Part shown: one piece after another, positions 1-25,962 of the stretch
Position numbering within the stretch: the first letter of the stretch is position 1
Layout of the letters: each line of letters begins with the position of its first letter
Source: Stramenopiles sp. TOSAG23-6
Lineage: Eukaryota; Sar
DNA length: 25,962 nucleotides
NCBI GenBank assembly: GCA_900128565.1
Contig: LT635990.1
Location: forward strand, 1-25,962
Reading direction: 5' to 3'
Notes under the pieces: model-generated
Seen by the model: only the letters and a program-made list of their open reading frames with translations
Database searches by the model: none
What the model was told of the DNA's origin: nothing
Made by a program: the position numbers and the translations under genes

Positions 1-53
1 ACGAAATTTCCTACGAAAAAAACAAATCGAATTTGAAAAAAAATAAAACACAC
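1..53 (-). repeat. Introner-type intron 5 of gene A (partial)
   Basis: On the minus strand the exon ends GAACCAT and the intron starts GTGTGTTTTATTTT, followed by the family's T-rich stretch and the start of the TTCGTAGGAAAT core. The window ends before the branch-point region and 3' end. The start is GTGTG rather than the usual GTATG. Confidence 0.75.
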
Positions 54-1639
54 ATGGTTCTACTAAAGAAAAGAGTGTTTCACCATATATGACCACTACC
101 GATGTACCATTTTCAAGGTGAGCACGGAGAAAAGAGTCAAGTATTATGCAAAAATATGTCAAATTTGAAATTTCTAAGGTACAAAACTTTTCGATTTTCT
201 AGGGAAAAAAAAATAAATAAAAAGTTGACAAAACTTTTCAATTTTCTAGGGGAAAAAAAAAAAATAAAAAGTTGACAACGTACAAATTCACTGCCATTAA
301 TGAGAACTCGATCTTTACGCCGTTGATCAATTACGCTAGCAACCTTTCGGGAACTCACTTCAAGTTCATGTTTCCACATACTCATCGCAAGATCCAAGCG
401 TAATAATAACATATCTTTAGTTACATACATGTATTTTAGAAAAATATTTCAAAAAAAATCTAAAAAACTTTGTTAGGTACAAATTTTTTATACTAAATTT
501 GATTTTTCTGTAAAAAAAAAAATAAAACATACATTGCAAGTGGAAACTTAATATTTGGTAGTTTTGGAATAATTTTTGTTAAAATTGTAGAACCTGACTG
601 AGCCGCATGCATCATATCGAATGTTTTCATTAAGTTTAACTTTGAATCTAATAACCGTTGAGTTGTAAAAACCATGTATTTTGGAAAAATATTTCAAAAA
701 AAAAAATTAAATTTTTGTTAGGTACAAAATTTCGTACGAAAAAAAATTCATACAAAAAAAAAAGAATAAAACATACATATCAACTATAGAACTATAATCA
801 TCACCTGAGCATATATTGTGAAAAATATTTTTTTTTTTGGAAAAAAAATTCGTTAGATACAAAATTTCGTACGAATTTGTTTTTGAAATTCATGATGAAA
901 ACGTACATAATTTACGCAGTTGAAGTTTCAATGCGGAGAGTTGCGCTTGATGACCCTTAGCTTCTTTTAGCTCTTTAGCCGCCATTTTGCACAGAGTATA
1001 ATTGATTATTTCATTTTCATGTCGTATACTACCGTGTATTGCATTATAGAACAAAGCTGATATGAATTTTTCGTGGTTCCTAATTTCTTGTTGGACTTCG
1101 ACTTCTTGTAGTATTTTTTCTACTTCTTGCAAAACATTATTTGGATCTGCACGTTCTGTTATCCTTAAAATTGGTTCTAAATGCTCAATTTTAGTTGAAC
1201 TCATTTTATTCGAACGTTTGATGTCTTCGAGAGATACTTTGGCTCGCGAAAGTAATACACAAATAAATTCATCATATACTTCTATTGGGCAATGTTTCTT
1301 ATTCGCAATTTCAATAGAAACTTCTAAACTTTGTACAAGAGAATACAAAGTATTTTGTAACATCTGTAGATCAGATAGAGAAGATTGATATCGCGGATGC
1401 ATGCTTTGAGTAGTCGATCGTGCCCTATCGATTTTTGTACTATATTTCCTATATATTTCGTCTTTTATATTAATTATGTCACTCAAATAGCCGGACATGC
1501 CACGTATTTTGGCAGAAAGATGCATCACAGCGGAAACTTCGGGTGGGAAATCAGCAATTCCAACGTCCATCCCAACTGAACGATGTAGCTGGAAATTCTC
1601 TAAAACGAATACAAGCAAAAAACTAAAAGGTACTCTCAT
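54..1639 (-). CDS. Gene A: secreted helical protein of unknown function (3' end beyond window)
   Basis: Spliced as complement(54..138, 284..428, 533..673, 777..810, 907..1639), which gives one continuous frame of about 379 codons with no stop. The product begins with a hydrophobic segment (residues about 3-15, MRVPFSFLLVFVLE) that looks like a signal peptide. The rest is mostly predicted helix rich in Lys, Glu and Leu, with coiled-coil-like stretches (for example around EVEKILQEVEVQQEIRNHEK). I recognise no domain. The start is the first ATG in the frame at 1639; it faces gene B across a 297-bp gap, so the two probably share a promoter region. Five copies of the repeated intron family interrupt it, the last cut by the window edge. 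The 34-nt second exon is notably short. The gene model rests on frame continuity only; no homologue guided it. Confidence 0.75.
139..283 (-). repeat. Introner-type intron 4 of gene A, GT-TT, with internal duplication
   Basis: The exon ends GAATTT, the intron starts GTACGTTGTC and ends ATAATACTT, and the next exon resumes GACTCT in frame. At 145 nt it is the longest copy, because a 47-nt segment is present twice in tandem (181-227 and 228-274). The core reads TTTTGTACCTTAGAAA, so the branch-point-like CTAAC is altered to CTTAG. Confidence 0.75.
181..274. repeat. 47-nt tandem duplication inside an intron
   Basis: Two adjacent 47-nt units (181-227 and 228-274) differ at only a few bases. Each carries ACAAAACTTTTC, TTTTCTAGG, an A-run and AAAAGTTG. 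The unit is the T-rich arm of the intron (seen here as its complement), so the duplication happened after the element inserted. Confidence 0.9.
429..532 (-). repeat. Introner-type intron 3 of gene A, GT-AT
   Basis: 104 nt. The exon ends CTTGCAAT, the intron runs GTATGTTTTATT...TTTTTCTAAAATACAT, and the next exon starts GTATGTAAC. The core is TTTGTACCTAACAAAG. The string ATGTATGT is found at both junctions, so the exact cut can slide, but only one join length keeps the frame. The nearest downstream AG shifts the frame. Confidence 0.85.
674..776 (-). repeat. Introner-type intron 2 of gene A, GT-AT
   Basis: 103 nt. The exon ends GTTGATAT, the intron runs GTATGTTTTATTC...TTTTTCCAAAATACAT, and the next exon starts GGTTTTTAC. 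It is a full-length copy with the TTCGTACGAAATTTTGTACC core and CTAACAAA. The nearest downstream AG shifts the frame and reaches a stop. Confidence 0.88.
811..906 (-). repeat. Introner-type intron 1 of gene A, GT-AT (GT-AG alternative 6 nt away)
   Basis: 96 nt. The exon ends AAATTAT, the intron runs GTACGTTTTCATC...TTTTTCACAATATAT, and the next exon starts GCTCAGGTGATG. The core is TTCGTACGAAATTTTGTATC followed by CTAACGAA. A canonical AG lies 6 nt downstream (GCTCAG) and would also keep the frame, with two residues lost, so this one intron alone does not prove an AT acceptor. Confidence 0.82.
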
Positions 1640-1936
1640 TTTCTTTTGGCAATTATACTACTAGTATATGTGAAGAATCCCGAGATCTTGATTCTTGAGA
1701 GGAAAGTTTCAAGTTTGGCTATACATACAACTTGAAAAGGTAGCAAACAAAAATTGTGTGTGTGACGTCATCATGTCACTCAGGATCATTTTCTCAATGC
1801 TCAATGCTCCTGTGTTATATTATACTTAATAGCAATTCGAATTTTTTTTAGGCTGTCAAATAAGAATGCTACTATCTACACTTACATTTAAGTAACCTCT
1901 TTAACAGAGAGCACTCGCAATTGTAATTGCCATCCA
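1640..1936. promoter_or_regulatory. Shared upstream region of divergent genes A and B
   Basis: This 297-bp gap separates two head-to-head start codons and holds no convincing reading frame or RNA gene. It includes TGACGTCA (within GTGTGACGTCATC near 1763), a perfect palindrome matching the CRE/ATF-type site, and an AT-rich TTATATTATACTT stretch near 1816. Any regulatory role is inferred from position alone. Confidence 0.4.
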
Positions 1937-3739
1937 ATGGTCTCAGCTATCATTGAAAATGCAGTAGAATCACAAGTTAGCCGACCCATTACAGGGATAG
2001 TAGCAGTCCCCACTTCCACTAAAATAGCTAAACCAAAGTCTTCCGTTAAAAGTGTATCATCACTCGCAACTGGCGAATCTGCAAAACTTGGAGTTGTCGA
2101 GTCGACCGGACTTCGCTCTCGAGGATCAGCAAAGCAACGAACTTTTACGCCAATTCCAGGAACAAATGAGGTATACGTACATTGTGCATATGGTTGTGGA
2201 ACTACATATCGCACACCGGCTCAGCAATCGAAGGGGACGTACAGACCTCCACCAGACAAAGTTGGGAAAAAGGAATGGCACAAAGTTATCCGTCGACTAA
2301 ACTCCCACGAATCTCAACGATGCCAAAATATGCCCGCATATAAGACAGCAAAGTCGGTAAAAAAATCAAGAATTGCTAAGCATAGTTGTAAAGAAATTAC
2401 AAAAGTTAATATGAATCCGGCAGGAGCAACGGTCCAACGTCGTTTTCGTGTTGTTTCAGGAGGCTTGGCTGACCTATCAAACGTTGAGTCTGATCCAAAT
2501 AGATTGGCTACATTGAACAGCACAAAACCAATGTCAATTACTTCAATTATAGATAACCGTATGAAACCGAGATCTTCTTCTTTGGATTATAGCTCTGCAC
2601 AAATCTGGGATTCAGATTCAGCAAATCATAGCAATACGAAAATTCGAAATGCATTGATGCCCCTTCGGCAGTATAGTGTGCCTTGCAACAACACTTGGTC
2701 AAACATTCCCCCACCTCCACCATCTGATAAATCAGATCGTGCTTGTTTAGCTTGTTTGGATGGGAAAATTTGGTTGTCTCATGTACGTTTTATTTTATTT
2801 TTAATTTCGATTTTTGTTTCGTACGAAATTTTGTACCTAACAATTGTTTTTAGATTTTTTTTGAAATATTTTCCAAAATACATGAAGAATATCAATGGGT
2901 CAGTTTAAATTTACCGGAAGCACATCTCATGTCCATTTCTAGTGTGAAAGAAGCTATTTCCATGTTGTGCACACGGCAATGGTCTACTGGTGGTGATAAA
3001 AAGAACACAGACAATATATTAGCAGCACATTCTGAAAAAAACAATATAATTGCACAAAATGCGATTTTAAGTAAGGCGACTTTCAATAGCAAAGAACATC
3101 AAAACTCCGTTGATCGAATTATGGAAGGCATTCTCAAAGGAAACGCACAGAAAAATATACTTGCTACATCAAATAATGAAAACTATAAGACTTCAAATGT
3201 TTCAACTGGTCAGAATACAAAAAATACGAAAACAATACGTTTTCATCATTCATTTCAAATTCTATTTTTTTTCATACGAAATTTTGTACCTAACGAATTT
3301 GGAATTTCAAAATTTTTAACAATACATAAAGCAGTTAATAAGAGCGGAAAATCTGGAGAAGATTCAGTCTTAGCTTCATTACTTTTACAGTTGAGCCGAG
3401 CACCAAGAATAGGCGGAAGCGTTGATAATTCTCCAAGGGATATAATGAGAACATCTTCAATCGGATCTTATGGCTTACCAAGTAAATCAGATATTTCATT
3501 AAACATTTTAGAAGCTTCAAGAAATTCAAGAGACGCTACTCTTCCTGGGATTCCTAGTGATAAAATACATGTATGTTTTATTTTTTTTCAAATTCGAATT
3601 TTTTTCGTACGAAATTTTGTACCAACTGTCTGACATATCTTGTATTGGTAATAAACGTCTTCATATCAATGCATGTGGGGATTCCATAATTAATTTGGAA
3701 GGTAAAAACAAGAGACTTCGTCCAAGTTTACTTTCATAA
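1937..3739 (+). CDS. Gene B: unknown protein, three introner-type introns
   Basis: Exon 1 is 1937..2782 and exon 2 begins at 2884 in the same frame. Later junctions are near 3238/3326 and after 3570. The start is the first ATG after an upstream stop at 1889. The product is basic and rich in Ser and Pro, with long low-complexity stretches and a PPPPPP run just before intron 1. Residues about 75-135 hold a possible Cys/His cluster (CAYGC followed by HESQRC), a candidate metal site but not a recognised family. Downstream of intron 1 the protein reads WLSHEEYQWVSLNLPE. The 3' end is uncertain: if damaged intron 3 is cut at GTAC (3622) the frame runs to a stop at 3737-3739; if it is cut at ACAT (3636) the protein ends at a stop at 3649-3651. 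No function can be assigned. Confidence 0.65.
2783..2883 (+). repeat. Introner-type intron 1 of gene B, GT-AT
   Basis: 101 nt. The exon ends TTGTCTCAT, the intron runs GTACGTTTTATTT...TTTTCCAAAATACAT, and the next exon starts GAAGAATATC. It carries the TTCGTACGAAATTTTGTACC core and CTAACAATT. The nearest downstream AG (GAAG) shifts the frame and reaches a stop after seven codons. Confidence 0.88.
3239..3325 (+). repeat. Introner-type intron 2 of gene B, degenerate 5' end
   Basis: 87 nt between two copies of AACAATAC (3231-3238 and 3318-3325). The usual GTACGTTTTC start reads ATACGTTTTC here. The core CATACGAAATTTTGTACC and CTAACGAA is intact, and the tail reads TTTAACAATACAT. The boundaries can slide within the 8-nt repeat (GT-AC is one placement). 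The segment is a multiple of three without a stop, so retention would not break the protein. Confidence 0.7.
3571..3636 (+). repeat. Truncated introner-type intron 3 of gene B
   Basis: The 5' half is textbook (exon ends AAAATACAT, then GTATGTTTTATTTT and TTCGTACGAAATTTTGTACC). After GTACC the sequence diverges to AACTGTCTGACATATC. The CTAAC motif and the TTTGAAATATTTTTCC tail are missing. The 3' boundary given (ACAT at 3636) is only one option; GTAC at 3622 is the other. Confidence 0.55.
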
Positions 3740-3958
3740 ACGCAATATATATATCAATGACAGAGTGATATATTTCTATTTTATGATACTGAGTATGCTG
3801 AAAACGGTGTTCAATAATTGAATCTTTTGGCATTTCATTCAACGCATTTTGATTATATGACACGTATTAAAATCATAGTGCTGTGTATTGATACATATTT
3901 CAAATCCATCAATAAAAGGTTATTAGAAATTTTCTTTATACAAACTTATACTTTAAAA

Positions 3959-6122
3959 TTACCATTCCATATCCGCCTTTTTTATAACATCATCTTGGAA
4001 TATGTCATGAAGATGTTTTCTCATAGACGTGTACAACGACGCTAACATACTTTCAAGCCAGTCTTCTAATTTATTTGTCGATGAAACTCCAGGTATAGAT
4101 GAATGCTGTGGTGCTTCCCCTTCGTTGACCTGTGCATACAATTCAGTATATCGAGGTAAAACTTCCTCCCGAATCAAATCTTTGATTTTCTGTATTGGAA
4201 ATTCTCCCTTCAGTTTCTGTTCTATGTTATTTATATGAAGACTGATTGAGGGCGCAACAACACAAAGTCTTACCATAGAGTGCATTGCTGCCTTGAGAAT
4301 ATCCTCTTTCATTTTAGCTTCATTATTCCTACATAAGTCTACAATATTGCGATTTTCATCTTCCAAAGTTTTGCAACGTAAACGAAGACATTTTACATCT
4401 TTTTCCAGACGTCTTTCACTACTTTGAGATTCAGTATACTTTTCTTTCTCTAACTGCATATTTGCTATTTGATCCAAATACGTCTCAATCTGTAGTTTTG
4501 CTTGCTGATTTTTCCATTTAGCGTCATCTCGCTCCTCTTTAGATAGTACTAACTTTTTAGCAATGTCGGCAAACTTATTTTCATTATTTTCTTGTTTAGA
4601 TTGAGACGATATTTTTAATTCTCCAATTTGTATTTTCAACCGTTTTATTTCCATATCTTTTACTTTATGTCTCTGCCTTTCATTTCTCATCGTGTCTTTT
4701 GATGACTGTACCAATTTTCGTAATCCTTTGACTGTATTGTAAAAAATATTTAAAAAAAAAATCGTTAGGTATGAAATTTGGTACAAAAAGATAAATTCGA
4801 AATTAAAATGAAAACGTACCCTCTTGCTGTAGGAAATGGACTTCATCTTTTAACTCAAGATTTTTTTCATTTTGCTGTATATTATCTTTCTCAAACAATG
4901 AAATGCGTTCATCTTTTTGAATAGATTCGCACCGAGATGTTTTTAATTGAAGTTCAAGTAATTCAATAATTGTCTGTTTTTCGTCTAATTCCATTCGTAG
5001 TTTTTTATTAGCAGCCAACAATTTTTCAATTTCATTTGCTTGGTCCCGATGTTTATCAGTGGCCTTGTCATTCGCTTCAATCATTGATTCTCCCATTATA
5101 GCTAACTTCTTGCACAAACTATTTCTCTCATTATCAATTTGCTTTTGATATGCCTCGTCTATTTTATATTTTTTTTCATTTTCTATTTTAATTATTTTTG
5201 CTGTTTCTTGTGCTGTTTCTTGTGCTGTTTCTATTTGACGAAGTTTTTGATTACTTATTCTAAGTTTTTCTTGCATCTCAGAAAGATCTCGATGGAGCTT
5301 TTTGTTTCCAGCTACTAAGTTTGCATTGTTCTTCGAAAGCTGAGAATTATTTTGAGTTATTTTCCGAATATTTGCTTTGAAATTTGCACATGTAACACAA
5401 TCTCTCTTCTTTGGTGTCGGGGCTGATTGCGGTCGCCCGCTTGCCGATATCCTGAAACCTCCTCCGACAGCAAGTTTTTGACCTCTAGTACCTCCGAAAT
5501 ATGAGTTAGAAGGATGATTATCCAGTGCAATTCGTTCTAGTCTTTTGACTTTTCGCTTCAGAAATAAATTTTGTTGTATTAGTTTGTCTCGATCTATATC
5601 GTCTTGTAAGCCCTGTACTTTGAGAAATCCATCTGAAAATTGTTCTACTCTTGATTTTTCAGCACGTCCAAATACATCTACTAATGAATCTTGTAACTCG
5701 AAACCATCTTCGCTACTCATATGATTTCTATTTGCTATTGGGTTGAAAAATCTATGTCTTGGATCAAGCAGTCTCACTGCACCACTTTTTGATTTTATAT
5801 TTGTTGTTGGCATATTAACTTGTTGCTTCTCTGATCGCCAACTTTGATTTGCTGTGAGAGGTCTTTTTTGTATTTGTTTCTTTTTTTTTAGGCGTGACTT
5901 TTCGAGATTCTTAAGGGTAGTACTTTGAACTTTCGTCTTATGACGATTGTACCGACTGACCTGTTTTTGCTTTGGTTGACTCAGTCGAGACCACTTATCA
6001 ACTTTCTTCTTTGCTTTTACCACCCGGATTCGATTCTTCGTAGATTTATTGGTTTTTGGGTTCAAAGAACGTTTACTCTCTCTCGGCTGAGTTATACCCA
6101 CAATTGACTTTGAGACAAGCAT
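3959..6122 (-). CDS. Gene C: long coiled-coil protein
   Basis: Spliced as complement(3959..4731, 4820..6122), 691 residues. The N-terminal ~90 residues are very basic (Lys/Arg/Gln rich). A segment at about 105-200 (LLDPRHRFFNP...DRDKLIQQNLFLKRKVKRLERI) begins the helical region. A long coiled coil follows from about 250 to 570, with heptad-like Leu/Ile spacing and a short TAQE tandem repeat (12-nt units near 5200-5235). One Cys pair (CVTC) lies near 235. The C-terminal part is less coiled. Such architecture is typical of cytoskeletal or basal-body scaffold proteins. The stretch around LFLKRKVKRLERI recalls RPGRIP1-like ciliary proteins, but that is an impression rather than an assignment. The start is the first ATG at 6122. 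It converges on gene B (219 bp) and diverges from gene D. Confidence 0.82.
4732..4819 (-). repeat. Introner-type intron of gene C, canonical GT-AG
   Basis: 88 nt. The exon ends CAGCAAGAGG, the intron runs GTACGTTTTC...TTTTTTACAATACAG, and the next exon starts TCAAAGG. The core is TTTGTACCAAATTTCATACC followed by CTAACGAT. It is one of two copies with an AG acceptor, and the upstream exon here ends in G. The join gives the uninterrupted frame QQEVKGLRKLV. Confidence 0.9.
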
Positions 6123-6559: not shown

Positions 6560-8755
6560 ATGGTTGGCTCAAAATTAAGTTCTATGGCTGCGCCTTCCGC
6601 GGAAGAAAAACATCGCTGGAGTAATTTGTTAAATTTTGTAGAAAGCGGACAAGGCGGTTTAGGATTTGATCCACTTCATTATGTAGAAGAATTGAAAAAG
6701 AGTACAGATTATATTCCTGAAGGAATGGAACTGAACACCATTGAGGATAGTTACCAGGAGAATATGACCGACACCTTACTTGATAGTTTCTTTGAAAAGC
6801 TAAGAGTTTCTACCCCAGAATTATCTAATAGTGATTCTGTGCATACAACTACTCCAACTGATGAAGAATATCCCATAAATGCGTCACTTTTTGAAAATAC
6901 GGATACAGAAACGGCGCAATCATCAGCTGAGAACTTTAGGCTAAATAATTGGGAACAAGAAAAACCAGTACACAAAGTAATGTCATATGGAGCAAGTACT
7001 CGAGGAGATGTATCTCAACTTGATGGTGAATTACTAAGCCCTGCATTGAATACACGTCATCAACATGCCCGTATTCCGGATAAAATAAGTGTTTCAGTTA
7101 AAATACCAATACCAAGAGGTAACCAAGGTGGTTCGTCTCAAAGAAACACCGAGACTGATGTTGAGGAATTTATTCAAGGAAAGTTATACAGCAATGAAAA
7201 CTCCAAAGATGTTTTGGATACACAAAACACTACTCTAGAAGTACGACATCAGACTTATCAACACAGGATGCGTGAGGAGCAGAATCGACTTCATCAGAAT
7301 AGGATAAAGGTATGTTTTATTTTTTTAATTTCGAATTTATGTTTCTTTTTCGTACGAAATTTTGTACCTAACGATTTTTTTTTGAAATATTTTTCCAAAC
7401 TACAGGGAGCTCATCGCAGTACTAGGAAGCAACCACTTGAATTATGCTCCTCCACTTCTATTTTCCGTACCAAAAAAACAATTACACCCAGTAAAAATAA
7501 TTCAGTCGATCTGTCTAATGCAGTATCTAACTTGGAATACAAGAATTTCGGTGAAATATCGACTACACCATCGTTAGAATTTATTACACAAAAACAAATT
7601 GAAGCAAATTTCACGCAAAAGAAAAAAAATCGAATACCTAAATTATCTTCAATGTTTTCGGAAACTTTCACAGCTGCTACACCTAAAATCGAAGCAAGTA
7701 TGGCAGTAACACCAAGAATAGACCGACCACATAAAGGTTATAGATATGTATGTTTTATTTTTTTTTTATGATTTTTTTTTTCGTACGAAATTTTGTACCT
7801 AATATATATATTTTTTTTTTTGAAATATTTTTCCAAAATATATTTCAATGGTGAAGTTTTAACAAAAAATGTAATAAATACAAAACAAGTTGATGATTCA
7901 AAAGGTAAATTAACATCCACAATTACCCATGGAGAAATAATTGAAAATACTAATATTGATGTAATTACTCAACTAAGATCTGCAAATGAGTCCCTTCAAA
8001 AACAGATAATATTATTGAAATCAGAAAAAGAAATGAAAAACTTTCGAATAGTTGAGAATACCGAAATTGCAGATTTAAAAAAACAAATAATCTCTACGAA
8101 AGAAGAGTTATGTAAAAGTTTAGAGGAAAATAAATCAAAGCAAGAAGAGATTTTTCGTATCAAAAGAGACAGCACCATGAAAGAGAGTGAACTTAGTACA
8201 CAACTTAGTACTGTTGTAGCGGCTCTCGATAGGGCAAACAAATTAATTGCAACAATCAAATCAAAAAAGCTGCATGTAAATCATAACTCTTTAATAGGAT
8301 TGCCTAAAGTACAGGAATCATTCAGTACATTTCCTACCAGTCTAAATGGATTGCCGAAGGTGCAGGAATCATTCACTTTAACTCCAGCGAGTATAGCTCT
8401 GAATCTAGATAAACAACGAATAAAAGCTCTCACAAAAGAATTTCACTTGGATGTGAAATCTTATGTAAGTAAAAGAAGTGAAAGAAGTGAAAAATTATCA
8501 AATGTTATCACTTCTTTGTCAGAAACAAGTAGAGAAGTAACTAGGAGATTGATGAATAGGATGAATGATTCTGTCTTGCCAAGTTATAAGGATACATACC
8601 CTAATATTCACGACAAAACATCAAGTGATCCAAGTTATAGTAGTTTGGATGATAGAATTAATGGATATAGATCACGACCTACAATGGTAAAGAGAAAAAA
8701 ATATTCATTTAGGAAACCACGCCCAGTTCAAGTGAAAGCGTTTACATATCTCTAA
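6560..8755 (+). CDS. Gene D: unknown protein with a C-terminal coiled coil
   Basis: Spliced as 6560..7309, 7406..7747, 7844..8755, 667 residues. The ATG at 6560 sits in a good context (CACAAAAATGG). The N-terminal ~100 residues (EEKHRWSNLLNFVESGQGG...LDSFFEKLRV) look folded and helical. The middle is Ser/Thr-rich and probably disordered. A coiled coil spans about residues 405-515 (KKQIISTKEELCKSLEENKSKQ region). It is followed by an imperfect duplication, GLPKVQESFSTFPTSLN then GLPKVQESFTLTPAS, and a basic C-terminus. No family is recognised. A polyadenylation-like AATAAA lies at 8781-8786. Intron 1 is in frame and free of stops, so an unspliced reading would give a slightly longer ORF. Confidence 0.78.
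7310..7405 (+). repeat. Introner-type intron 1 of gene D, canonical GT-AG
   Basis: 96 nt. The exon ends AGGATAAAG, the intron runs GTATGTTTTATTT...TTTTTCCAAACTACAG, and the next exon starts GGAGCTCATC. It has an intact core and CTAACGAT. The upstream exon ends in G, matching the G of the AG acceptor. Its length is 32 codons without a stop, so intron retention is coding-neutral. Confidence 0.9.
7748..7843 (+). repeat. Introner-type intron 2 of gene D, GT-AT
   Basis: 96 nt. The exon ends TATAGATAT, the intron runs GTATGTTTTATTT...TTTTTCCAAAATATAT, and the next exon starts TTCAATGGTG. The branch-point motif is degraded to TACCTAATATAT. Splicing at the nearest AG (GGTGAAG) gives an immediate TAA, so the frame supports the AT end. 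Confidence 0.85.
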
Positions 8756-8883: not shown

Positions 8884-11295
8884 TTAAACAATCACTCTTT
8901 GACTTAATTCAATAGATCCAGTTCTATACAACGTTTTGACACGCCCGTTATCGACATTAATATCATGTTTTTGTTTTTCCTTAGCATATCGCTCTTCATC
9001 GTGAATCTTTGCATTTGTTTTCATCTCCTTCAAAATTCTTTTCATCAAATGTCTTTCTCCAAACCGCATTTCAACGTGAATTCTGCAAGGTTTGACATGA
9101 TCTTCACTGAAATGGCCGAGGTCTACATCTAGCCAGGCCTCATTTGCTTCTCCATTAGGAAAGATATGGTTTCCTTCTACATTTACAACATCGCGAATAT
9201 TAACATTACAAAAACCTATGACCCTATCCAATTCAGTAAGATGACCTTCAACGACATCCATTAGACTAATTTTTATTATATCATTTGGCATTCCTGGTGT
9301 TTCCACATGAAACTTAAATTCATTCTTTTTGGTATACACAGGATGGAGAGTATTGTACATGACTTGCGTCGAATAAGATTGATGATTACATTCAATTAAA
9401 ACGTAAGGATCGCACAAATCATCTGTGGAACCATCGGCAGGAACTCCAGCCACTTCAAGGACCTTTATATATAATCTATAGCTTCCGCGTACTCTGCCAA
9501 TGTGTTTACCTTTGCCACCATCGGTCCATCCTTTCATTAACTTAAATGCAATAAAATCAACAATTATATATACGACAGCTGCTGAAGCAATTGCCGCTAC
9601 AAAGGCAGCGAGAAATGCATCAAGATTAAATGCACCTACTCGACCTGTGACACGAAATATTATACGAATTCCGTGTCGATTGAATACTTCTCGATGTGTA
9701 GATGACTCTGAAACGTGTTGTAATAATTTATACTCCATTTTATTAATCACGTTTGCTGTCATGGTATATCGATAATTATCAAGATTAAATGATCCTCCCA
9801 TATTATTATAATCTAATGTGAGAGACACAATGACACCTGCATGTATTATGGAAAAATATTTTTTTTTCCTGTAAAAATTCGTTAGGTACAAAATTCTCTA
9901 CCAAAAACAACACTTATATTTATGAAAACATACATATCGATTTGTTTCGCCCTGGCTTGATTCCGATTCTGTATCTAGATCTACAGATGCCATTTTCAAA
10001 ATTGTACCAACTGTCAAAATATCCATGAGCTCATTATTTTTGCAACTACAGGACTTTTTACTAGCATCTTTTCCATGTATTATGAAAAATATTTTTTTTT
10101 GATTTTTTTTGTTAGGTATAGAATTTTGTCTTAAAAAAAAAAATGAAATTCAATTTTGAAAATGTACATCTTCATTTGAACAATCTCCTGGAGATTGATC
10201 TATGTATTTTGGAAAAATATTTCAAAAAAAATTGTTAGGTACAAAATTTCCTATAAAAAAAAATAGAATTTGAAAAAAAAATAAAACATACATATGTGAA
10301 TTCTCTTTACAACCTACTGAGATGAAGTGAGGACACTTGTAGTTGTTCTTTGTGTATTGTGAGCATGGATCGATAAAATTGCCCTCAGTGTCTTTGAGGT
10401 ATCCGACCATTTCTCTTTGGTGTTTTTCGACAGACAAATTTTTTGTCCCAAAAATACTTGGAATTTCAGCATGCATAGAATGGTCAATTTTTAATGTAGC
10501 AAACTCAACATTCCTTGCAAAATTAGATTGAAGAATTTCTCCTTTTTTTTTATTTACCCACTCGTTATGACTATCACGAGTTGAAGACTCAGTTGTCAAT
10601 CTGGTACTTATAAAAATTGTATTCAATTCCGATGTGGGATAGACCAATTCAAAAGAGTCATAATTTTCACATGGAAAGACATATCTATATTGTTTCACCC
10701 TATTTTTATAGTCGCTATATGAACCTAATCGAAGACGATCTTGGAGAAACCATTGTCCGGAAATTGTATCACATTTTTCTTTAGTTGTTTGCTGGAGAGC
10801 CACAGAAAGTTCATTAGCAACAATATAGGTAGATTGGTTAGGGAGTGTCCCTGGAGTGGTCTGAATTCGAGTACCATTACCAATTATTCCGAGTGAACCA
10901 CAGGTTTTGCAAGTGTTTGACACTACGCAAAATCCTTTAGGACAACTTGGTTTGCTTAAATTTACAGTTTTTTTATCAGTATCAACGCAGGCTAGAGCGT
11001 CCTTTGAAGGTAAGCAATATTCATACATCACACTTGGCTTGGAAAAATCTGATGAAGCAGCGAATACTCCGGGTCGTACGAAACCCGTGGGTTCTGTGAT
11101 ATACGCATATCCAAACGCACTAAACATTTTCCAGATAAGAAAACTTAGAATACCCAATTGTAATAGTGTATTTAACAAACCTAGCCTCCAATCATTTATG
11201 ACAGCAACACGGGCCGTAGTATATGGGAAATATCGATTGAGGGTACGTGTTGAAGGCATTGCGGTTGTTATCTTATTGTACAACTTTGTCATCAT
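8884..11295 (-). CDS. Gene E: P2X-type ligand-gated cation channel fused to a C2 domain
   Basis: Spliced as complement(8884..9840, 9934..10074, 10168..10201, 10292..11295), 711 residues. P2X receptors are trimeric cation channels, usually opened by extracellular ATP. The N-terminal tail carries YTTAR, matching the conserved YxTxK/R motif. TM1 is about residues 36-56 (GLLNTLLQLGILSFLIWKMF). A Cys-rich ectodomain follows, including IDHSM and the late segment RYAGVIVSLTLDYNN. The family signature before TM2 is HGIRIIFRVTGRVGAFNLDAF, and TM2 is about 461-494. The cytoplasmic tail is unusually long: about 513-628 is a C2 domain (YRLYIKVLEVAG...LCDPYVLIEC...LDRVIGFCNV), then a charged tail. I do not see the KxK pair that vertebrate receptors use to bind ATP after TM1, so the ligand is uncertain. 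The start is the tandem ATGATG at 11295. Confidence 0.88.
9841..9933 (-). repeat. Introner-type intron 3 of gene E (P2X), GT-AT
   Basis: 93 nt. The exon ends AATCGATAT, the intron runs GTATGTTTTC...TTTTTCCATAATACAT, and the next exon starts GCAGGTGTC. The core is TTTTGTACCTAACGAA. The join gives RYAGVIVSL, which fits the P2X family here. The nearest downstream AG (GCAG) shifts the frame. Confidence 0.9.
10075..10167 (-). repeat. Introner-type intron 2 of gene E (P2X), GT-AT
   Basis: 93 nt. The exon ends AATGAAGAT, the intron runs GTACATTTTC...TTTTTCATAATACAT, and the next exon starts GGAAAAGATG. The core is diverged (TTCTATACCTAACAAA). The nearest AG (GGAAAAG) breaks the frame. Confidence 0.87.
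10202..10291 (-). repeat. Introner-type intron 1 of gene E (P2X), GT-AT
   Basis: 90 nt. The exon ends TTCACATAT, the intron runs GTATGTTTTATTT...TTTTTCCAAAATACAT, and the next exon starts AGATCAATC. An AG directly follows the AT end (ACATAG), but splicing there produces a TGA within the 34-nt exon. The frame therefore chooses ACAT over ACATAG. Confidence 0.9.
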
Positions 11296-11567: not shown

Positions 11568-13228
11568 ATGTTGAGTGGTTTAGATATGAAATTCGAGCGT
11601 ACACAGAATAGCATACCATATTCTTGCAGTACGTTAAACCAGAGTCACATGTACCAGGAGAAGACGCGATCAAAAACGTCTGCATATTTGCCGAAAGTCA
11701 TTCTCATGGGCGTTTTCATTATTGTTTCAATACTATTCTTCATGTTAAAGGTTTTATCCGGTCAGTGGACTATATTTGGTCTAGGTGAATTCCAAAACTG
11801 CTCACAGAGTATCGATAACTTACAAGGTAAATTAGCTAAAGCTAGTGTGAATTATGCAGATTTGCAGAAACGATTCAATCTTTTATTGTATTCAGTTAGA
11901 ACTCATGCTCCTCATATTGAAGATATATACTTGATGAATGCACAAACTTCCGGCGGTAGTGCTTTTAATTACTACAATGCAAATGACCCAAATTCGAGTA
12001 GGCCTAATAATAATCATACATCCCACTTACAGCATATTCAACACCAGTATCAAATGAACTATGCACAGCAAATGCAATATATGCAACAGCTTCGTCAAAA
12101 GCGAATCCATGAGGAACAAATCCATCAACAGCAGAAACAACGGGAGCATCCAAACAACATAACTGAAGAGTCTCCAGAAACTAAAGCATCAAGAATCGAA
12201 AGAGTCAGAGCAATAATTCGAATGCCAGAAACTTTGACTAATGAATGTAAAATTCCTTCGGACTTTGATTGGACATTTTCAACGATTATTGAGGATTTCA
12301 AAGCACAACAGCTACAAGATAAATTCTTACTCACAACATTATTACCAGAGGATAAACAGAGCCATGGAACATTTGTCGAGGTCGGTGCAGGGGATGGAAT
12401 TATTTTATCAAGTACATATTTTCTAGAGAAACATCTTTGCTGGAGGGGAGTTTGTATCGAACCCTCACCTTCAGTGTTTCATCATTTAAAACAAAATCGC
12501 CCAGATTGCATAGCTTTACACGGTTCAATTTGTACGGAAAATAAATCTCGAATATTTATTGAAATCACATCTGAAACTGGGAAATGGACAGGCTTATCTG
12601 GATTCAAAGATAACTTTTCTCCTGCTCATTGGGAAATGGTCAATAAAAGTGTAAATGAAAAATCATATCAAATGGAAGAGATTGAGGTACCATGTATGTT
12701 TTATTTTTTTTTCAATTTCAAATTGTTTTTTTTTCGTACGAAATTTTGTACCTAACAAATTTTTGTTTTTTTTGGAAATATTTTTCCAAAATACATGTCA
12801 TCGTTTGGATACAGTCATGGAACACCTAGGGATGAAACGAGTAAACTACTTAGTTGTTAAGGCTGATGGTAGTGAGTTGCAAGTTCTTCAAACTATGAAC
12901 TTTACTCATGAAACAGATGTAGATGTTGTACAAGTAGAAGTTTTTAATCAAAGTGGATCTAATATTGACGCTATAACAAATTCTATGACAACTCAAGGAT
13001 TTTGGGGTCCTTTCACTATGCCTGTAAATTCTAAAGGTACTACATTAGACTACTTCTTTATTCATCATCAAGGTGTATCTAGACCAATTGTTGAGAAACA
13101 CATTCAGAACAATCAAAGACAACAAACTTATGCCTATCATCAACCACCACCACCACCTCCTCCTCCTCCTCCTCCACCCCCTCATAAACAGCAGCAACAA
13201 CAACAACAACGACGACAACAGCAACAAC

Positions 13229-13602: not shown

Positions 13603-15595
13603 TTAGATTTCGTCACAATGGAGTCTAAAATCAGTCCAACCATGAATTGGAAAATTTAGTTTTGTTTGTATATAATTATTCACTTCACACATTCCAGCAA
13701 CTTCACTCTTCCTTTCTTGTGTAATGATAGCAGGGAGACAAGACAAACCTAAACTAGCATGTTTTGTAAAAGAATATATCAAATCCGATATTCGTAAGGT
13801 ACAGAAAACAAAAAAATCGTACAAAAATTCGTACCAAAAATAAATAAATTTGAAATTCATGATGAAAACCTACAGCTTCTTCCAAGACATTTATAGCAGC
13901 ATAGATGTAACCACTAGCCCACCAAGCCATGGCATCTAAACGAATTGATGCTAAAATTTGAGAAAGACTTCGGAAACGTTCAAGAACAAACCTACTACTT
14001 GAAATGTCATCCCCAGAGCCTGCTCTTTTTGCACTATCATAATGTACATATTGAAACATTTGTGATTTGTTTATATTTTCGGTAGCTGAGTTCGATGTTG
14101 TATTAAATTCTCTTGATGCCCAATTATTTCGAAACTTATTTGATAATGAATTCCATTTTTTATAGATGGAGCAATCAGTAGATACGGTGTTATTAGGATT
14201 AGAAAATGAGTCACGCAAACAGTTATAATATTTCACTTCATTGTCGAAGCGCTTATTAATCATTTTAGGCGATGAAAGTGCCATAGAGAATAGCTTTTTA
14301 CGCATGTTTTTTGCCTCCACGCTCTTTTCTGCATTCTTTTTACATAAAGTAAAATTATTATCCTTTTTATCTACCTCATTCACAGAAATCTCTCTCGCAC
14401 ATGATTTAGTTTTATTACTATGTGTATTATCAATGTATTCAAATAATACTGCACCTGTGTTTGGGTCAATTTTTCTTGTTTTTACATCATAAAATGAATT
14501 CACAGCGGATTCAATATTTCGGAAAAAAAAAGGACAAACTCCAGAAGTAGGTAACCAAAAACCAGGATAGTTGCGTCCAGGATTAGATGTCCCTGAACTT
14601 CGAAACATAAGTTCTCCATCAAGCATTGCAAATTCTCGACCGGAAAGGACATTTCGATGAGCACCCGAGTCAGTGTATACACTAAAGACATGCGCTTTAC
14701 CGGGTATCAGAACAATACTTTTTTCACCAGTTTGTTTTGAATTTGAAGAAATTTCCTCATAATTTCGACTTTTTTCCTCCTGTTTTTTTTTTTTTTTCTG
14801 TTGTTTTTCGTTGTTTTCAAACATCGTAGTTGTAGAATGAACTATTGGTGAGGCAGAAAAGAAAATTTTATCTTTAGTAACAATAATACGCCCACTCTCG
14901 CTTATGTTTGATCTTGATTCTACATTAGTTTCTACACTCACTGTTGCAATATGATATCCAGCCATGTCAGAAGGTAAAGTCAGATTTAGAGTGCTTTGAA
15001 CTCCAGAAATACAAGTTTTTTGATTCGTTTTTCTAATTCTACCTTTTTTCTCTTCTTGTGGAGGAATATAAGATGTTAGATCTATACATGTAAAAGCTGT
15101 TATAGCATTGTGTGATATTTCATTTTGTGTACTGACATTTTCATTGAATTGAATTTTTTTGATAATTGTCTTGATGGATTCAATCGATGGAAAATAATGA
15201 ACACGGACAGAAACGTTTCCAGGAGATGTTATCCTCTTTGTACTATCTATTATTGAGGCTACCCTTACACCAATGACTCGATTCGAATCGAAATATGGTG
15301 TTTGTACACCATTTTCTATTCTTTCAGAGAGTGCACTCATTTTGGATTGCTCCAATTTTATAGCAGACTCAACACTAGAACAGTCAATATTGGAAACACC
15401 ATTATAAGCACAAAACCGAAGAGCAACTATAAAAGGTGAATCATCTAATGAAAAGACAATCTTCTTTGGGTTGTTACGGTTCCCTTGGTCAGACAAATAT
15501 ACTTGTATTGAAGCAGTCTGGGAACCATCCACAAGTAAGAGTGATGATATAAATATAAGCACTCGAAAAGCAGTAGATGCAAACACTATTCTCAT
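13603..15595 (-). CDS. Gene G: secreted protein of unknown family
   Basis: Spliced as complement(13603..13758, 13874..15595), 625 residues. A signal peptide is clear at residues 1-25 (VLIFISSLLLVDGS). The first ~240 residues alternate short hydrophobic strands with polar loops and several NxS/T sites, in keeping with an extracellular beta domain. A Lys-rich run (KKKKKK) sits near 260. A segment around residues 330-375 (SGREFAMLDGEL...RNYPGFWLPTSGVCPFFF) is the most motif-like part. The C-terminal third has eight or more Cys and ends DFRLHCDEI. I recognise no family. The ATG lies 26 nt after the stop of RPP14 on the same strand. Unspliced, the frame would run through the intron to a TAG at 13754. 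Confidence 0.75.
13759..13873 (-). repeat. Introner-type intron of gene G, GT-AT, diverged
   Basis: 115 nt. The exon ends GAAGAAGCT, the intron runs GTAGGTTTTCATC...TCTTTTACAAAACAT, and the next exon starts GCTAGTTTAGG. The core is rearranged (GGTACGAATTTTTGTACG, then a second TGTACCTTACGAA), so the branch-point motif is CTTAC. Using the AG of GCTAG shifts the frame and ends the protein after 18 codons. Confidence 0.75.
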
Positions 15596-15621
15596 GACGA
15601 AACTAGAAGGTTGCCACCAGC

Positions 15622-16457: not shown

Positions 16458-17508
16458 ATGAACCAGCCTTGGTATGTAATTCTTTTACTTTTGACATTGT
16501 CATCCAGCCTTACCTATGTAACATGTCGGGAAATTGGTGGGAAAGTGTTGCTAGAAACAGTCAAAGCAATAACGTTGAAGAAGGGTAAATACACGAACTC
16601 TAGACGAGTCTCGGCAATTCCACAGATAACATGTATAAATGGTTGTCATCTTGCCAGCCCAAATAGAATTCAATGCAAAAACTCAGGTTCGGATGGTGTT
16701 GATATTCAGTGGGAATGTTCTACAGATCTTCCAGCGGGTGTTTCGTTCGAAGCAGTTGAAGTTCTATGCGAAGGTTACGATTATCCGGAAGATGAATATG
16801 TTTTAAAAGGTTCCTGTGGAGTAGAATATTCTTTATCGGGTCATCGCAGCGATAATCATTCCCAACATAGCAGTTGGGGCAATGGCTATGCTGATAGTGA
16901 TCCATATGGTTATTCAAGTTCAGATTATAGCTATGATAGATCAGAGAGTACTTTTAGTTTTTTTCGGTTATTTATTCTTATCGCTATAATTCTTACTGCT
17001 TATTCTTGCTGTTTTAGTGGTGTCAACAATACAACGAATACAGGGCGCGGTGGAGGTCCTGGAGGTGGAGGTGGAGGTGGTGGAAATAATTGGGGAGGTG
17101 GAGGGGGTGGCCCACAAGGTGGAAATCCTCCTGGAGGTAATGACTGTGGACAACAAGGAACGGGTTTTGGAGGCGGTGGATTTTTTCCCGGAGCAGGACT
17201 CGGTGGATTACTTGGCTATGCCTTGGGTCGTGCAACCGGTGGTGGAGGATATGGAGGATACAACAATAGATATCGCCGAAATGGATATGCTGCTGGTGGT
17301 TATAGAAATACAGGTGTACGTTTTCGAAATTGATTTTTTACCTAAATTTATTTTGTACCACATTTCGTACCTAACAAAAAAAAATCAAATGAAATGTTTT
17401 TTCACAATACATGGTGGAGGAATGAGATTCTCGAGTAGAGGTGGATCCTCCTCCAGTGGTGGTGGTACACGTCGTGCTACAGGTTTTGGGGGGACGCGCC
17501 GTCGTTAA
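16458..17508 (+). CDS. SARAF: SARAF (TMEM66) homologue, store-operated calcium entry regulator
   Basis: Spliced as 16458..17315, 17413..17508, 317 residues, close to the animal protein's length. SARAF is a single-pass ER membrane protein that in animals turns down store-operated calcium entry through STIM/Orai. A signal peptide covers residues 1-23. The luminal domain shows the family blocks in order: VLLETVKAITLKKGKYTNSRR, IPQITC, IQCKNSGSDGVDIQWECSTDLP, VLCEGYDYPEDEYVLKGSCGVEY. TM is about 166-188. The cytosolic tail is Gly-rich (196-280, with GLLGYALGRATGGG) and ends in GFGGTRRR, the same C-terminal GGTRRR motif as vertebrate SARAF. That motif is encoded by exon 2, which supports the intron removal. 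No STIM or Orai gene is visible here. Confidence 0.93.
17316..17412 (+). repeat. Introner-type intron of SARAF, GT-AT
   Basis: 97 nt. The exon ends AATACAGGT, the intron runs GTACGTTTTCG...TTTTTTCACAATACAT, and the next exon starts GGTGGAGGAATG. The core has lost part of the first palindrome arm (TTTGTACCACATTTCGTACC) but keeps CTAACAAAA. The nearest downstream AG shifts the frame to a stop. The join is needed to reach the conserved C-terminal GGTRRR. Confidence 0.9.
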
Positions 17509-19001: not shown

Positions 19002-19331
19002 TGGAAGTGTTGAAAAAATAAATTGCCTTAACGATTAGGAAGTGAGGAACTGTTGAAGAATTTGCGGCTCTTTTTGCGAGGAACTCAACTCCAGGAACTG
19101 ACGCTGACTTTATATTACTACTATGTGGAATTTCACATATGGAATTTAGGAAATGGGGGGAACAAAACTGTTTTTGTAGGAGATTATCAAATTTTTCAAA
19201 TCGTCCGTTGAATTTTGAATAATTTTGAACTAAAGCTCGTCGTCGTCGATCCATGCATGTCGTATCCATTTTATATAGTGATTGACTTTCAAGTTTATAC
19301 AATTACATTACAACAATACTGAAAACAAAAG
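19002..19331. promoter_or_regulatory. Shared upstream region of divergent genes H and I
   Basis: 330 bp. A frame on the minus strand runs through much of it and into the start of gene H, but it has no family-like features and I take it as untranslated. TTATATAG near 19271 lies about 60 bp before the ATG of gene I and could be its TATA box. Confidence 0.35.
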
Positions 19332-20027: not shown

Positions 20028-20104
20028 TAAAGAAGACTCGGAGACTCCACAAGATTCAGACAGAAGTCCAAATAGTTAGGGAATTATATTTTGATACAAA
20101 GAAG

Positions 20105-20269
20105 AAAAACAACATTTGATTTTGTTAGGTACAACATTTACTATGAAAACAAATAGAAATATTTGTACACAAAACTATATATTATTTTTTAATCGAATAA
20201 ATATATCAAAAAAAATCATTAGGTACAAAATTTCGTACGAAAAAAAAATGAATTTGAAAAATATTTCTT
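20105..20269 (-). repeat. Two decayed intron-family cores in the 3' flank of gene J
   Basis: On the minus strand TTCGTACGAAATTTTGTACC followed by CTAATGAT occurs just after the stop of gene J (20217-20240). A second, weaker core (TAAATGTTGTACCTAACAAAA) lies near 20122-20142. Neither has the full GTATG start and CCAAAATACAT end. They look like copies in the 3' UTR or the debris of an old terminal intron. Confidence 0.6.
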
Positions 20270-23200: not shown

Positions 23201-25894
23201 AAAATCACCTATTTGAAACTTTGGGCGCATGTTTGTGTTACCATTGACTTTCTGAAATGCCTTTCCAGCTAATGCACCTTCGATACATTTTACGTCAAAT
23301 AAGCCCAAATCCTGATTTTTTTGGATCTGCGTTTTTACAGGATGTACATTATTTATTTCTGCTACTGCCCAAATACGTTTTGCATAAGGCCCGACGGTTG
23401 AGTCTGGATTATCTATGAGGCATTCAACTACACCATCAACTACAAAATTTGAGTTACAAAGTTTCTTCCATATAATTTCTCGTTTTCTCTCTTCAGCGTT
23501 GAAATCTGCTTTCGCAATTCTTGTTTCTTCGTGATCTTCTATCAGATTTTCTAAATTATTACCTCCTTGATCTTTGGATACTTTGGTAAGATTGTATGGT
23601 GTTTTCGGCAGTTTATGTACAGGTGGAATAATCCCCCAATTGCACTTCTGATCTTCTGCAGCAACTTGTATCTTATCGAAAGCTTCATTATCTGACGATT
23701 GCCCATTAATATTACAACGTGGCTCGCCATTAACATTACAACGTGGTACTTTATATATATAATGAATTCGTTCATTTGGAATCATCGTTGGTGCGATAAG
23801 CGCTTGTGGACGTTTTTCTAGAGAAGATTTAAGCTCTTCAATTTCTTTTCTACGTTGTTTTCCTGTTGGGATTATACCAGTACATTGCTTATAGTATTTT
23901 TGAACCCTTGCGTTTTCTTTCTCTAACCTCATAGAACTATTATCGAGCATATAATACGAGAAAGGGTTCCATGTTGAAGAACGAAGTGACCCTTCTTTAA
24001 GCTTATCACATATATCCACTACTTTGGCGTGAAAAGTATTATTGTAGTTTTCACAAGGCTTTTTTGACACAGCAGATACGAGATCTCTCCCACCCTTATA
24101 ACGAATATATACCGCTGCTGCTAACAACGGAACTTGTATCCCAAAATTTTGAGTAGTACCAGATATATTTTGTTCATTTGCTACCCCAACTTCACCATAA
24201 GTAAAGTGAAGCGCGGTTTCGCCAGCAACATTTTGATGATTCACATGTGCTCCACTATCAATTAATAACTTAACAATTTCTAATACTGAACAATATGCTG
24301 GGCTTGGGTGACCTCGTCTCTTTTGCTTACTAATTTTTCCATTTTCCATGTTAATACTAGAACTAGAAGATGTACTACTAATGTCATCGGTTTGAATGCT
24401 TGAATTTTGACTTAATAATTTGTCAGGCACTTTTGTAAAATTTGGCGTCAAACCATTACTTGTAGGTTCATTCGGTGGTTCAAATTTGTTCCGTTTCTTT
24501 CGAACTTCGTGAAAACCCCATCGGCATGCATGTATTTTGGAAAAATATTTGAAAAATAAATCGTTAGGTACAAAATTTCGTACGAAGAAACAATTCATAC
24601 AAAAAAAAAAAAATAAAACATGCATGTATAAGTGGGGAGTTCATATCTGCATCAATTTCATTAGGATCACTGCCTCTATCCAACAAACGAACAACGCAAG
24701 CTGAATCTGAATTAGCCGCAGCTCTCGACAGAGCACGAGTATTGTTTACCCCCAAATTAAATGAAAGATAGTTTTGGAGTCTCAAATCTTCTTCGGCATG
24801 AATTTTGATCCAAATATTTTGTTTCCATTCAACTTCCGCGTCAGCTTTGCCAGCCTCAAAATCCTCCATCATTTCGACGAAATCTTTTGATACTTCGTTG
24901 GTACTTTCAAAATTAGACATACTGTTTATAGAAGTTGTGCTTTCTGTATTTTTTTCTACTTCCTCTCTATGACGATTTTTTTTCTCTTTTTCATATATAT
25001 CGTGAAAAAATATTTAAATTCCTTTTTTGTTAGATGAAAATTTTAATACGAAAAAACATTATTTTGAATTCAATATTGAAAATGTACATGCATCCTTTAC
25101 AACTTGTTTTCGCCGAGCCCATTCTATTTCGAAATCATTTCCACCTAATTTGGCAAAGCGTAACCAGCGACGATATTTCAAAATATGACGCCGGAATGTA
25201 TATTTTTGAATGATACTTGCGGAGTAGTTTTGCCGTTTTGCAAGTATTTCGTCAATTGAGATTTCTCCAGAGATTTGACTACGTAGTTGAATACATTCAT
25301 CCCACCCACGACTATCCCACATACGAACTCCTAATGTACGATCATTATTTAAACTAGGATTTTCTTTTATTTTATTCTTTTGGGTGTCTACCTCTTGGTT
25401 CTCACTATATGGTTTAGGCCTGTAATGAAATGTGTGATGACGCCACCCATCTGTAATGAAACAATCATTTAAAGTGTACCATTTTTTATCAAGAATGATT
25501 GGAGAAAATTGAGGTATATTTGGAAGATTTAAGAAGCGACAAGCTACCTTAAAATATTTCCTACGATCCACATGTAGTGATGATATAGAGAACTTGTCAT
25601 GAAATGGAGCAACAGTACCATCTCCTTCGACTATGACATCATTTCCAGTTAAATGCACGCAATGTAATCCTTTATTACCTTGGAAAGCTTTAGTTAAATG
25701 TTCAATATTTATTTTGCTACACCCAATTCCACAATGATCTAACTGAAGTACTTGCAATACTGTATTTTGAAGTAAGGCATTGGCTAACACAGGGATCGAT
25801 GACCAAGTTATCCACCCAGCATCAATTTCTCTTGTCGGTTTCGTAGTAGACACTTCATTCTCTACTGGAGAAGGATTTACATAAATGGTAGAGA
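20270..25894 (-). CDS. Gene J: very large LRR - IQ - ankyrin - EF-hand protein (5' end beyond window)
   Basis: Spliced as complement(20270..24525, 24620..24994, 25088..25894), at least 1,812 codons in one frame. Read N to C: an LRR-like segment (VLQVLQLDHCGIGCSKINIEHL, then GLHCVHLTGNDV; 25650-25800) of ribonuclease-inhibitor type; an IQ-like basic helix (IIQKYTFRRHILKYRRW); ankyrin repeats on both sides of intron 3 (VVRLLDRGSDPNEIDADMN, PLIHACRWGFHEV, then VLEIVKLLIDSGAHVNHQN and ETALHF); a central region with two GDxV blocks, the first GDFVEVRC, possibly tudor/agenet-like; two canonical EF-hand loops, DKDDSGDITPDE (21478-21513) and DTDMNGRIDADE (21368-21403), spaced as in calmodulin; and a C-terminal helical part with a 13-residue tandem repeat. 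This suggests a calcium-responsive scaffold, perhaps ciliary or cytoskeletal, by analogy only. The stop TAA is at 20270. Confidence 0.85.
20630..20707. repeat. 39-nt tandem repeat in the coding region of gene J
   Basis: Two identical 39-nt units (20630-20668, 20669-20707) encode the repeated residues EIENTSEKVKQKV twice. The identity at silent positions shows a recent duplication. Confidence 0.95.
23701..23746. repeat. 24-nt tandem repeat in the coding region of gene J
   Basis: The unit CATTAAYATTACAACGTGG occurs twice 24 nt apart and encodes PRCNVNGE followed by PRCNINGQ. It is a small in-frame duplication with one silent and one conservative difference. Confidence 0.85.
24526..24619 (-). 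repeat. Introner-type intron 3 of gene J, inside an 11-nt direct repeat
   Basis: 94 nt. ATACATGCATG stands at both junctions (upstream CTTATACATGCATG, downstream AAAATACATGCATGCC), so the cut can be placed as GT...GCAT (as listed) or four bases earlier as GC...ACAT. Every placement gives the same product, PLIHACRWGFHEV, which fits the ankyrin consensus. The nearest AG would delete CRWGFHE. Confidence 0.88.
24995..25087 (-). repeat. Introner-type intron 2 of gene J, GT-AT
   Basis: 93 nt. The exon ends GGATGCAT, the intron runs GTACATTTTC...TTTTTTCACGATATAT, and the next exon starts ATGAAAAAGAG. The core is worn (TTCGTATTAAAATTTTCATC) but CTAACAAA is kept. The nearest AG gives an immediate TAG at the junction. 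Confidence 0.82.
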
Positions 25895-25962
25895 ATGTAT
25901 TTTGGAGAAATATTCCAAAAAAAAAATGTTAGGTACAAAATTTCGTACGAAAAAAAATTGAA
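25895..25962 (-). repeat. Introner-type intron 1 of gene J (partial)
   Basis: The window starts inside it. It has TTCGTACGAAATTTTGTACC, CTAACATTT, and the tail GGAATATTTCTCCAAAATACAT, and the exon resumes TCTCTACC. The frame upstream is open from the junction. The 5' end is outside the window. Confidence 0.8.

Follow-up and report, generated by a model that had tools for sequence, protein, structure and literature searches.

The AG at the end of an intron is among the most conserved signals of eukaryotic genes, and the locus described here raises the question of how messages are restored when genes are interrupted by near-identical introns that mostly end in AT. The window, by which we mean the whole stretch of 25,962 nucleotides that was analysed (Stramenopiles sp. 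TOSAG23-6, LT635990.1, positions 1 to 25,962), is contig C40 of an assembly of 8.03 Mb in 408 contigs. This assembly is partial and looks single-cell-derived, with near-identical contigs (C13/C14) and inverted duplications within C2 and C4, as in amplified single cells. The host appears to be a MAST stramenopile, judging by the name of a deposited protein, P0013. Our in silico results make it probable, in our judgment, that the interruptions are introners that arose from a short DNA transposon and are removed by a U2-type spliceosome in which YAT (Y being a pyrimidine) is accepted for YAG.

How large is the family? The interrupted genes of the window number nine, and their near-identical introns place the family among the introners, with which Huff et al. 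are said to have dealt in 2016. A hidden Markov model (HMM) built from 32 family copies was run over 249,116 bases of the assembly, the window included, and was preferred to a pattern search (224,738 bases, 40 rows) since the pattern presupposed the ends. At E<1e-3, partial copies counted, it gave 131 matches in all and 124 in 219,676 bases (ten stretches); 20 of the latter lie in the window, in agreement with the earlier note on this DNA, which had described about 20 near-identical introns in nine genes as one introner family. Across the 8.03 Mb, a 25-nucleotide core with at most two mismatches occurs at 1,652 sites (858 + 794), and its reversed control at none. This core rule recovers 65 copies in the same 219,676 bases where the HMM gives 124, a ratio which by extrapolation suggests some 3,000 family copies in the assembly, the stretches having been picked partly because the core was already listed there. 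The inverted duplications and near-identical contigs somewhat inflate the genome-wide counts, both of the core and of the 3' arm described below. A 22-nucleotide core had no match in IMG/VR, a collection that may omit records close to the window's genome. On contig C1 (17483-17678) two family copies adjoin directly, without an intervening exon, and removing the pair brings the frames on either side into agreement. The 51-kb contig C380, which carries a Cpn60 family chaperonin gene and longer GT-AG introns, possibly comes from another organism; the HMM gave no family match in the 6,333 bases read from it.

Where such an intron ends can be asked of the reading frame. After repeats with the same flanks had been dropped, 89 near-full-length copies remained, 88 of them (15 from the window) with enough flank, and codon scores gave a clear frame on both sides in 79 of the 88; the codon model was trained on the long open reading frames (ORFs) of the same stretches. 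The two frames agree at the family's own 3' end in 72 of the 79 copies, where one third would be expected (binomial tail 8e-27), and at the next downstream AG in 30, near chance (tail 0.22). Outside the window only, the family end is in phase in 60 of 66 copies and the next AG in 26; no AG end occurs among the 60. The last two bases of the 72 in-frame copies are AT in 62, AC in three, GT in two, and TT, GC, AA, CT and AG in one each; the single AG copy comes from the window, and a canonical 3' AG is thus not a property of the family. Their first two bases are GT in 63, AT in five, GC in two, GA in one and TT in one, and the introns fall in phases 0, 1 and 2 in 33, 24 and 15 cases. As read from listings, four of the seven frame misses are in phase at an AT one or two nucleotides from the model end. 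In 23 framed copies an AG stands between the branch motif and the end, and there the first AG is in phase seven times and the model end 20 times. This tally, which leaves out a copy whose AG is its own end and includes several AGs that sit in TTTTTTAG, is the weaker evidence, because some of the AGs lie within about 13 nucleotides of the branch A and are maybe too close to it.

In the window itself, rebuilt gene models hold 17 complete copies within the coding sequence of nine genes. Sixteen can be fixed at both ends, and re-deriving them gave the count that had been claimed before: 13 end in AT, two in AG and one in TT. The seventeenth (g2b) is frame-neutral. The copies are as follows.

1..53, minus strand: gene 1, another copy that runs off the window, with just its 5' part (GTGTG..) inside (sequence).
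139..283, minus strand: gene 1 intron d, 145 nucleotides, GTACG..ACTT, TT on both sides (frame model).
429..532, minus strand: gene 1 intron c, 104 nucleotides, GTATG..ACAT, with an internal TTTTTTAG out of frame (frame model).
674..776, minus strand: gene 1 intron b, 103 nucleotides, GTATG..ACAT (frame model).
811..906, minus strand: gene 1 intron a, 96 nucleotides, GTACG..ATAT (frame model).
2783..2883, plus strand: gene 2 intron a, 101 nucleotides, GTACG..ACAT (gene model).
3235..3327, plus strand: gene 2 copy b (g2b), 93 nucleotides, ATACG..ACAT, stop-free and a multiple of three, so that the frame cannot judge its removal.
4732..4819, minus strand: gene 3 intron, 88 nucleotides, GTACG..ACAG (gene model).
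7310..7405, plus strand: gene 4 intron a, 96 nucleotides, GTATG..ACAG, AG on both sides (gene model).
7748..7843, plus strand: gene 4 intron b, 96 nucleotides, GTATG..ATAT (gene model).
9841..9933, minus strand: gene 5 intron c, 93 nucleotides, GTATG..ACAT (gene model).
10075..10167, minus strand: gene 5 intron b, 93 nucleotides, GTACA..ACAT (gene model).
10202..10291, minus strand: gene 5 intron a, 90 nucleotides, GTATG..ACAT (gene model).
12694..12796, plus strand: gene 6 (FkbM methyltransferase) intron, 103 nucleotides, GTATG..ACAT (gene model and FkbM score).
13759..13873, minus strand: gene 7 intron, 115 nucleotides, GTAGG..ACAT (gene model).
17316..17412, plus strand: gene 9 (SARAF) intron, 97 nucleotides, GTACG..ACAT (gene model and homologues).
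24530..24623, minus strand: gene 12 (ankyrin, as the earlier note named it) intron a, 94 nucleotides, GCATG..ACAT (gene model).
24995..25087, minus strand: gene 12 intron b, 93 nucleotides, GTACA..ATAT (gene model).
25895..25962, minus strand: gene 12, another copy that runs off the window, with just its 3' part inside, ACAT end (sequence).

Gene 5 (8884-11295, minus strand) combines a partial match to the P2X receptor with a C2 domain, and no homologue of it was found at E<=0.001 among 7,458 candidates. Gene 2 holds a third, shortened copy (3571-3625) that is without the usual 3' arm after GTACC and adds an in-frame stop. Two family-like cores lie outside coding frames at 20060-20280, between the ends of genes 11 and 12, and the coding sequence of gene 12 contains a perfect 39-bp tandem duplication at 20628-20705.

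Protein homology speaks to the same question. The HSP70 gene on contig C83 has three family introns, of 98, 108 and 92 nucleotides. Cut after the AT, they give the junctions ..KRSLSSTTQ.., ..RDVHEVVLVGGSS.. and ..NIPPMLRGVPQ.., in agreement with P0011, P0012, Phytophthora and plant HSP70 and the PDB chains 7kw7 and 3c7n; cut at the next AG, intron 1 loses four residues, intron 2 loses the frame, and intron 3 turns MLR into I. The FkbM product scores 49 bits with the AT cut versus 30.5 with the next AG, which lies in frame at +18 and whose use removes conserved residues, a cost that had been noted when the locus was first described. In the SARAF gene the AT frame restores the C-terminus ..GFGGTRRR, common to P0122 and P0125, and the following AG, at +7, is out of frame. 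In two actin-related genes the family introns end, in frame as read, in TT (C10, where the next AG at +27 is likewise in frame) and in AG (C72), so that the family is not AT-only. No usable introner was seen in Rab-type genes on C24 and C26 or in an actin piece on C173. The deposited HSP70 protein P0013 ('GSMAST32.ASY1.ANO1.212.1 assembled CDS', EukProt) equals the C83 translation save for missing or altered stretches, among them all three junctions, and P0121, an unspliced SARAF, reads into its intron. Protein searches for spliced sequences of the same species gave near-identical matches to these two only, and none crosses a junction as predicted.

These results bear directly on whether the copies are ordinary GT-AG introns spliced at some AG close by, or whether the genes are dead and the inserts stay unspliced. 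AG ends do occur, in two of the 16 window copies and in the C72 copy, and the next AG is in frame in two of the three HSP70 introns, in FkbM and in C10. Over the 79 framed copies, however, the next AG is in phase at chance level (30), an internal first AG is in phase in 7 of 23 against 20 of 23 for the model end, and AG cuts delete conserved HSP70 and FkbM residues. We rejected splicing at the nearest AG on these grounds, and regard this explanation as very improbable.

What, then, does the element carry at its ends? The 72 in-frame copies share the 5' consensus NAT/GTAYGTTTT (the stroke marks the intron boundary), with G at the first intron base in 66 and T at the second in 69, and the 3' consensus TYCAMAATAYAT/G, in which the last intron base is T in 66, C in four, A in one and G in one. 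A branch-like motif, CTAAC, is present in 70 of the 79 framed copies and as a variant in eight more (78 overall), its A lying 32-53 nucleotides from the intron end; with the GT donor of 63 of the 72 copies, this is the arrangement of a canonical U2-type intron. U12-type introns have the donor RTATCCTT and the branch site TTCCTTAAC close to the intron end, and with GTAYGTTTT and a CTAAC 32-53 nucleotides from the end an assignment to that type was rejected. YAY forms the last triplet in 65 of 72 copies and directly precedes the intron in 41. Genome-wide, the base next to the exact 16-nucleotide 3' arm ATTTTTCCAAAATACA is T at 536 sites, C at 15, A at nine and G at 12. This tally of candidate introns, some of them on duplicate contigs, fixes the base at -2 as A.

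At its two ends the element carries ATGTAT(G)TTTT and AAAATACAT, which make up an inverted repeat that is short and imperfect. In 19 copies the dinucleotide to the left of the intron is not AT; the right one is then identical in four (TT, AC, GT and GT; permutation p 9e-5) and AT in 12. We read this as a probable 2-bp target duplication combined with a preference for AT insertion sites. A 3-bp duplication of ATG was discarded, since G follows the intron in only 45 of 72 copies but is the first intron base in 66, and in the non-G cases the two bases seldom agree. On C50, near position 11,810, AAA precedes the intron and CAT ends it; left and right bases also differ in genes 7 and 9 of the window. 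Because the right dinucleotide follows a non-AT left one in 4 of the 19 copies, the AT end would in part reflect where the element inserts. AT had been proposed as the rule at this locus, and what is well supported of that proposal is that one family is concerned, that AT is its usual end and that downstream AGs are in phase at chance.

At what level are the copies removed? Among 91 copies with flanks, 83 lie in sense (73 in sense only, 10 better in sense), four in antisense and four in neither, and two of the four antisense-flanked copies are also open in sense. Placement is thus strand-specific, which argues that removal acts on RNA, since DNA excision would ignore the strand. Removal from RNA, as frame and strand suggest, is the best account. 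The inverted ends, the 2-bp duplication and the exact restoration would also suit elimination at the DNA level, as with the internal eliminated sequences of ciliates, or bypass by the ribosome. Elimination has no need for sense orientation, yet 83 of 91 copies are in sense and the strand independence of the ciliate type is not seen, and the phases (33/24/15) show no codon lock such as bypass would impose. Both were rejected, and we find this explanation hardly credible.

RNA-level removal might also proceed without ordinary recognition of splice sites, if the terminal repeats paired and the ends were joined; pairing of this kind has been proposed for non-canonical introns of euglenozoans and of Amoebophrya. 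The short inverted ends, the nine of 72 copies that lack GT, and the variable last dinucleotide would fit, and at least four expected pairs are found in 30 of 72 copies versus 16 of 72 in the control. Mean pairing, by contrast, is no stronger than in the control (2.95 versus 2.84), for which reason a strong end-hairpin was rejected, and such a mechanism would make the kept GTAYGT and CTAAC needless. We hold end pairing to be improbable.

The donor, the branch motif and the T-rich tract look U2-type, and from them we infer that the spliceosome removes the family. The course of events that we favor would begin with a DNA transposon, short and non-autonomous, whose ends read (AT)GTATGTTTT..AAAATAC(AT) and which inserts mostly at AT and duplicates two target bases. 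The 5' splice site (GTAYGT), the branch site (CTAAC) and a T-rich tract would all come with the element. Where other introns have YAG, the major (U2-type) spliceosome would use the YAT at the element's 3' end, cutting exactly after the AT, and removal would leave one target copy and restore the original message. YAT may be permitted by an altered step of 3' recognition, such as a variant U2AF of the kind seen in Fritillaria. Matches to the U2AF65 model fell below its cut-off.

The earlier note had likewise concluded that recognition of the 3' splice site is altered. This would follow if removal is spliceosomal, but the canonical AG rule is kept beside it. The HSP70 gene on C282 combines a canonical GTAAGT..CAACAG intron with an introner farther along, of which the contig end leaves the greater part; a second canonical intron, GTAAGT..TACTAAC..CAACAG, is found on C13. 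A crude scan of coding gaps gave 58 with an introner and 42 without. A GT-AG solution above the score limit was obtained in 14 of the 42, two pairs of which are inverted duplicates, and of those inspected by eye only two, on C282 and C13, were convincing. Two displayed gaps, on C60 and C2, look like decayed family copies. By this crude measure canonical introns seem few.

The proposal should be interpreted with some caution, since several observations weigh against it. Nine of the 72 in-frame copies have no 5' GT, six end in GT, TT, GC, AA or CT, which is looser than a YAY rule predicts, and three framed copies fit no nearby AT. One count is in its favor: from young to old, thirds of 24 copies each have a YAT right end in 21, 19 and 22 cases and a 5' GT in 19, 20 and 24, so that old copies appear to show no drift to AG, in a ranking by similarity to consensus strings that we made ourselves. 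Searches for U2 and U6 small nuclear RNAs gave no match in the assembly, nor in the control genomes, and U2AF35 was not recognised in the ORFs around three of the eight CCCH matches of this partial assembly. Prp8 on C84 aligns with hPrp8 at about 1,001 bits over 465 residues, including a stretch that we take to contact the 3' site, and no change is visible in it; this Prp8 may belong to another cell, because the 7.7 kb of C84 that were read hold no match to the family HMM.

Lastly, 54 of 72 copies have the same dinucleotide in front of the donor as at the intron end, AT in 50 of them, and a cut two bases upstream would then yield the same messenger RNA (mRNA). The 'GT-AT' ends originally reported are in this sense one of two parses, AT-AC two bases upstream giving the same mRNA in 50 of 72. 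The same spliceosome might cut two bases upstream at both ends, at NN-GTATG..ATAC introns that are mostly AT-AC. The shifted parse gives AT..AC in 38 of 72 copies and would let the TT/TT, GT/GT and AC/AC copies all end in AC, and the A-C terminal pair is described as isosteric with G-G (PMC13326754). It is set against a conserved 5' block that begins at GT, with G in 66 and T in 69 of 72 copies, and so matches what donors usually show; and it would leave 5' ends of AT, GT, TT, CT, AA, GA, CA, AC or GG, with 10 of 72 copies reading AT..AT. Moreover, 12 of the 19 copies with a non-AT left dinucleotide keep AT on the right, as if the right AT itself were kept. We consider the upstream cut unlikely.

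The cut after YAT, which we prefer, could be part of something wider. Nearly all introns may belong to one transposon family, a second 3' code, YAY (mainly YAT), may exist beside YAG, and splicing may reverse the insertion exactly whatever bases were duplicated, with nearer AGs ignored; to this we give somewhat less than an even chance. If true, the acceptor would be set by the transposon end and not by the last dinucleotide. Perhaps 3,000 mostly AT-ending copies beside ordinary introns make the 3'-site needs of the spliceosome testable, and the same genome lets one test how the spliceosome bends to a spreading transposon. Gene models may be wrong wherever an AG has been forced, the junctions of P0013 and the intron read-through of P0121 being examples. 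MAST-3A and MAST-3F have been assembled from single cells (Seeleuthner et al. 2018, PMC5778133), which makes MAST-3 a likely identity of the host and MAST-3F a guess; in the text of that paper 'splice' occurs 0 times and 'intron' twice, and in that of Labarre et al. 2021 (PMC8163842) 'intron' occurs 0 times and 'splice' once.

How does the family compare with known systems? Introners, and AT as the commonest 3' end in larvacean tunicates (PMC13326754), are known already. A GT donor, a CTAAC branch and a YAT acceptor combined in one stramenopile family were not found in searches of the published literature, as judged from listings. Introners are near-identical introns in unrelated genes, part of whose families show the terminal inverted repeats and duplications of DNA transposons (Gozashti et al. 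2022, PMC9860276). As described there, the element either brings the splice signals or finds them in the target, as seems to hold here; unlike here, where the 3' end is mostly AT and the duplication looks 2 bp long, the families in that account have GY/AG sites with GC and GA 5' variants and duplications of 3-9 bp.

Fritillaria and Amoebophrya are the nearest precedents. The first is an animal, a larvacean tunicate (PMC13326754). In F. borealis and F. pellucida AT is the commonest 3' end, at 34% and 44%, with RNA support. The AG/AC and AG/AT classes of Fritillaria end in YAY almost always, often with YAY before the 5' end, and canonical introns coexist with them, as in our case; the spliceosome there is U2-type, as we infer here. 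In contrast, the main classes described for Fritillaria start with AG, whereas our family has GTAYGT with CTAAC and no 5' AG among 72 copies, and F. borealis has a duplicated, divergent U2AF.

Amoebophrya (PMC7789003), like our host, is a marine protist in which introners have spread, with more than 60% non-GT-AG introns, and the introners among its introns have inverted and direct repeats at their ends. The account of that genome gives no fixed terminal dinucleotides, unlike the mostly GT..YAT introns here, and the inverted repeats of the introner subset, 8-20 nucleotides long, are proposed to form hairpins, of which none is clear in our family. In two species of hemistasiid diplonemids (PMC12621601) about 97% of splice sites are non-canonical, and U2-type spliceosome parts are present. 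Their introns are described as having variable ends, extensive pairing and a branch motif in few introns; in the family described here the ends are fixed, the pairing is weak, and 78 of the 79 framed copies have a branch motif.

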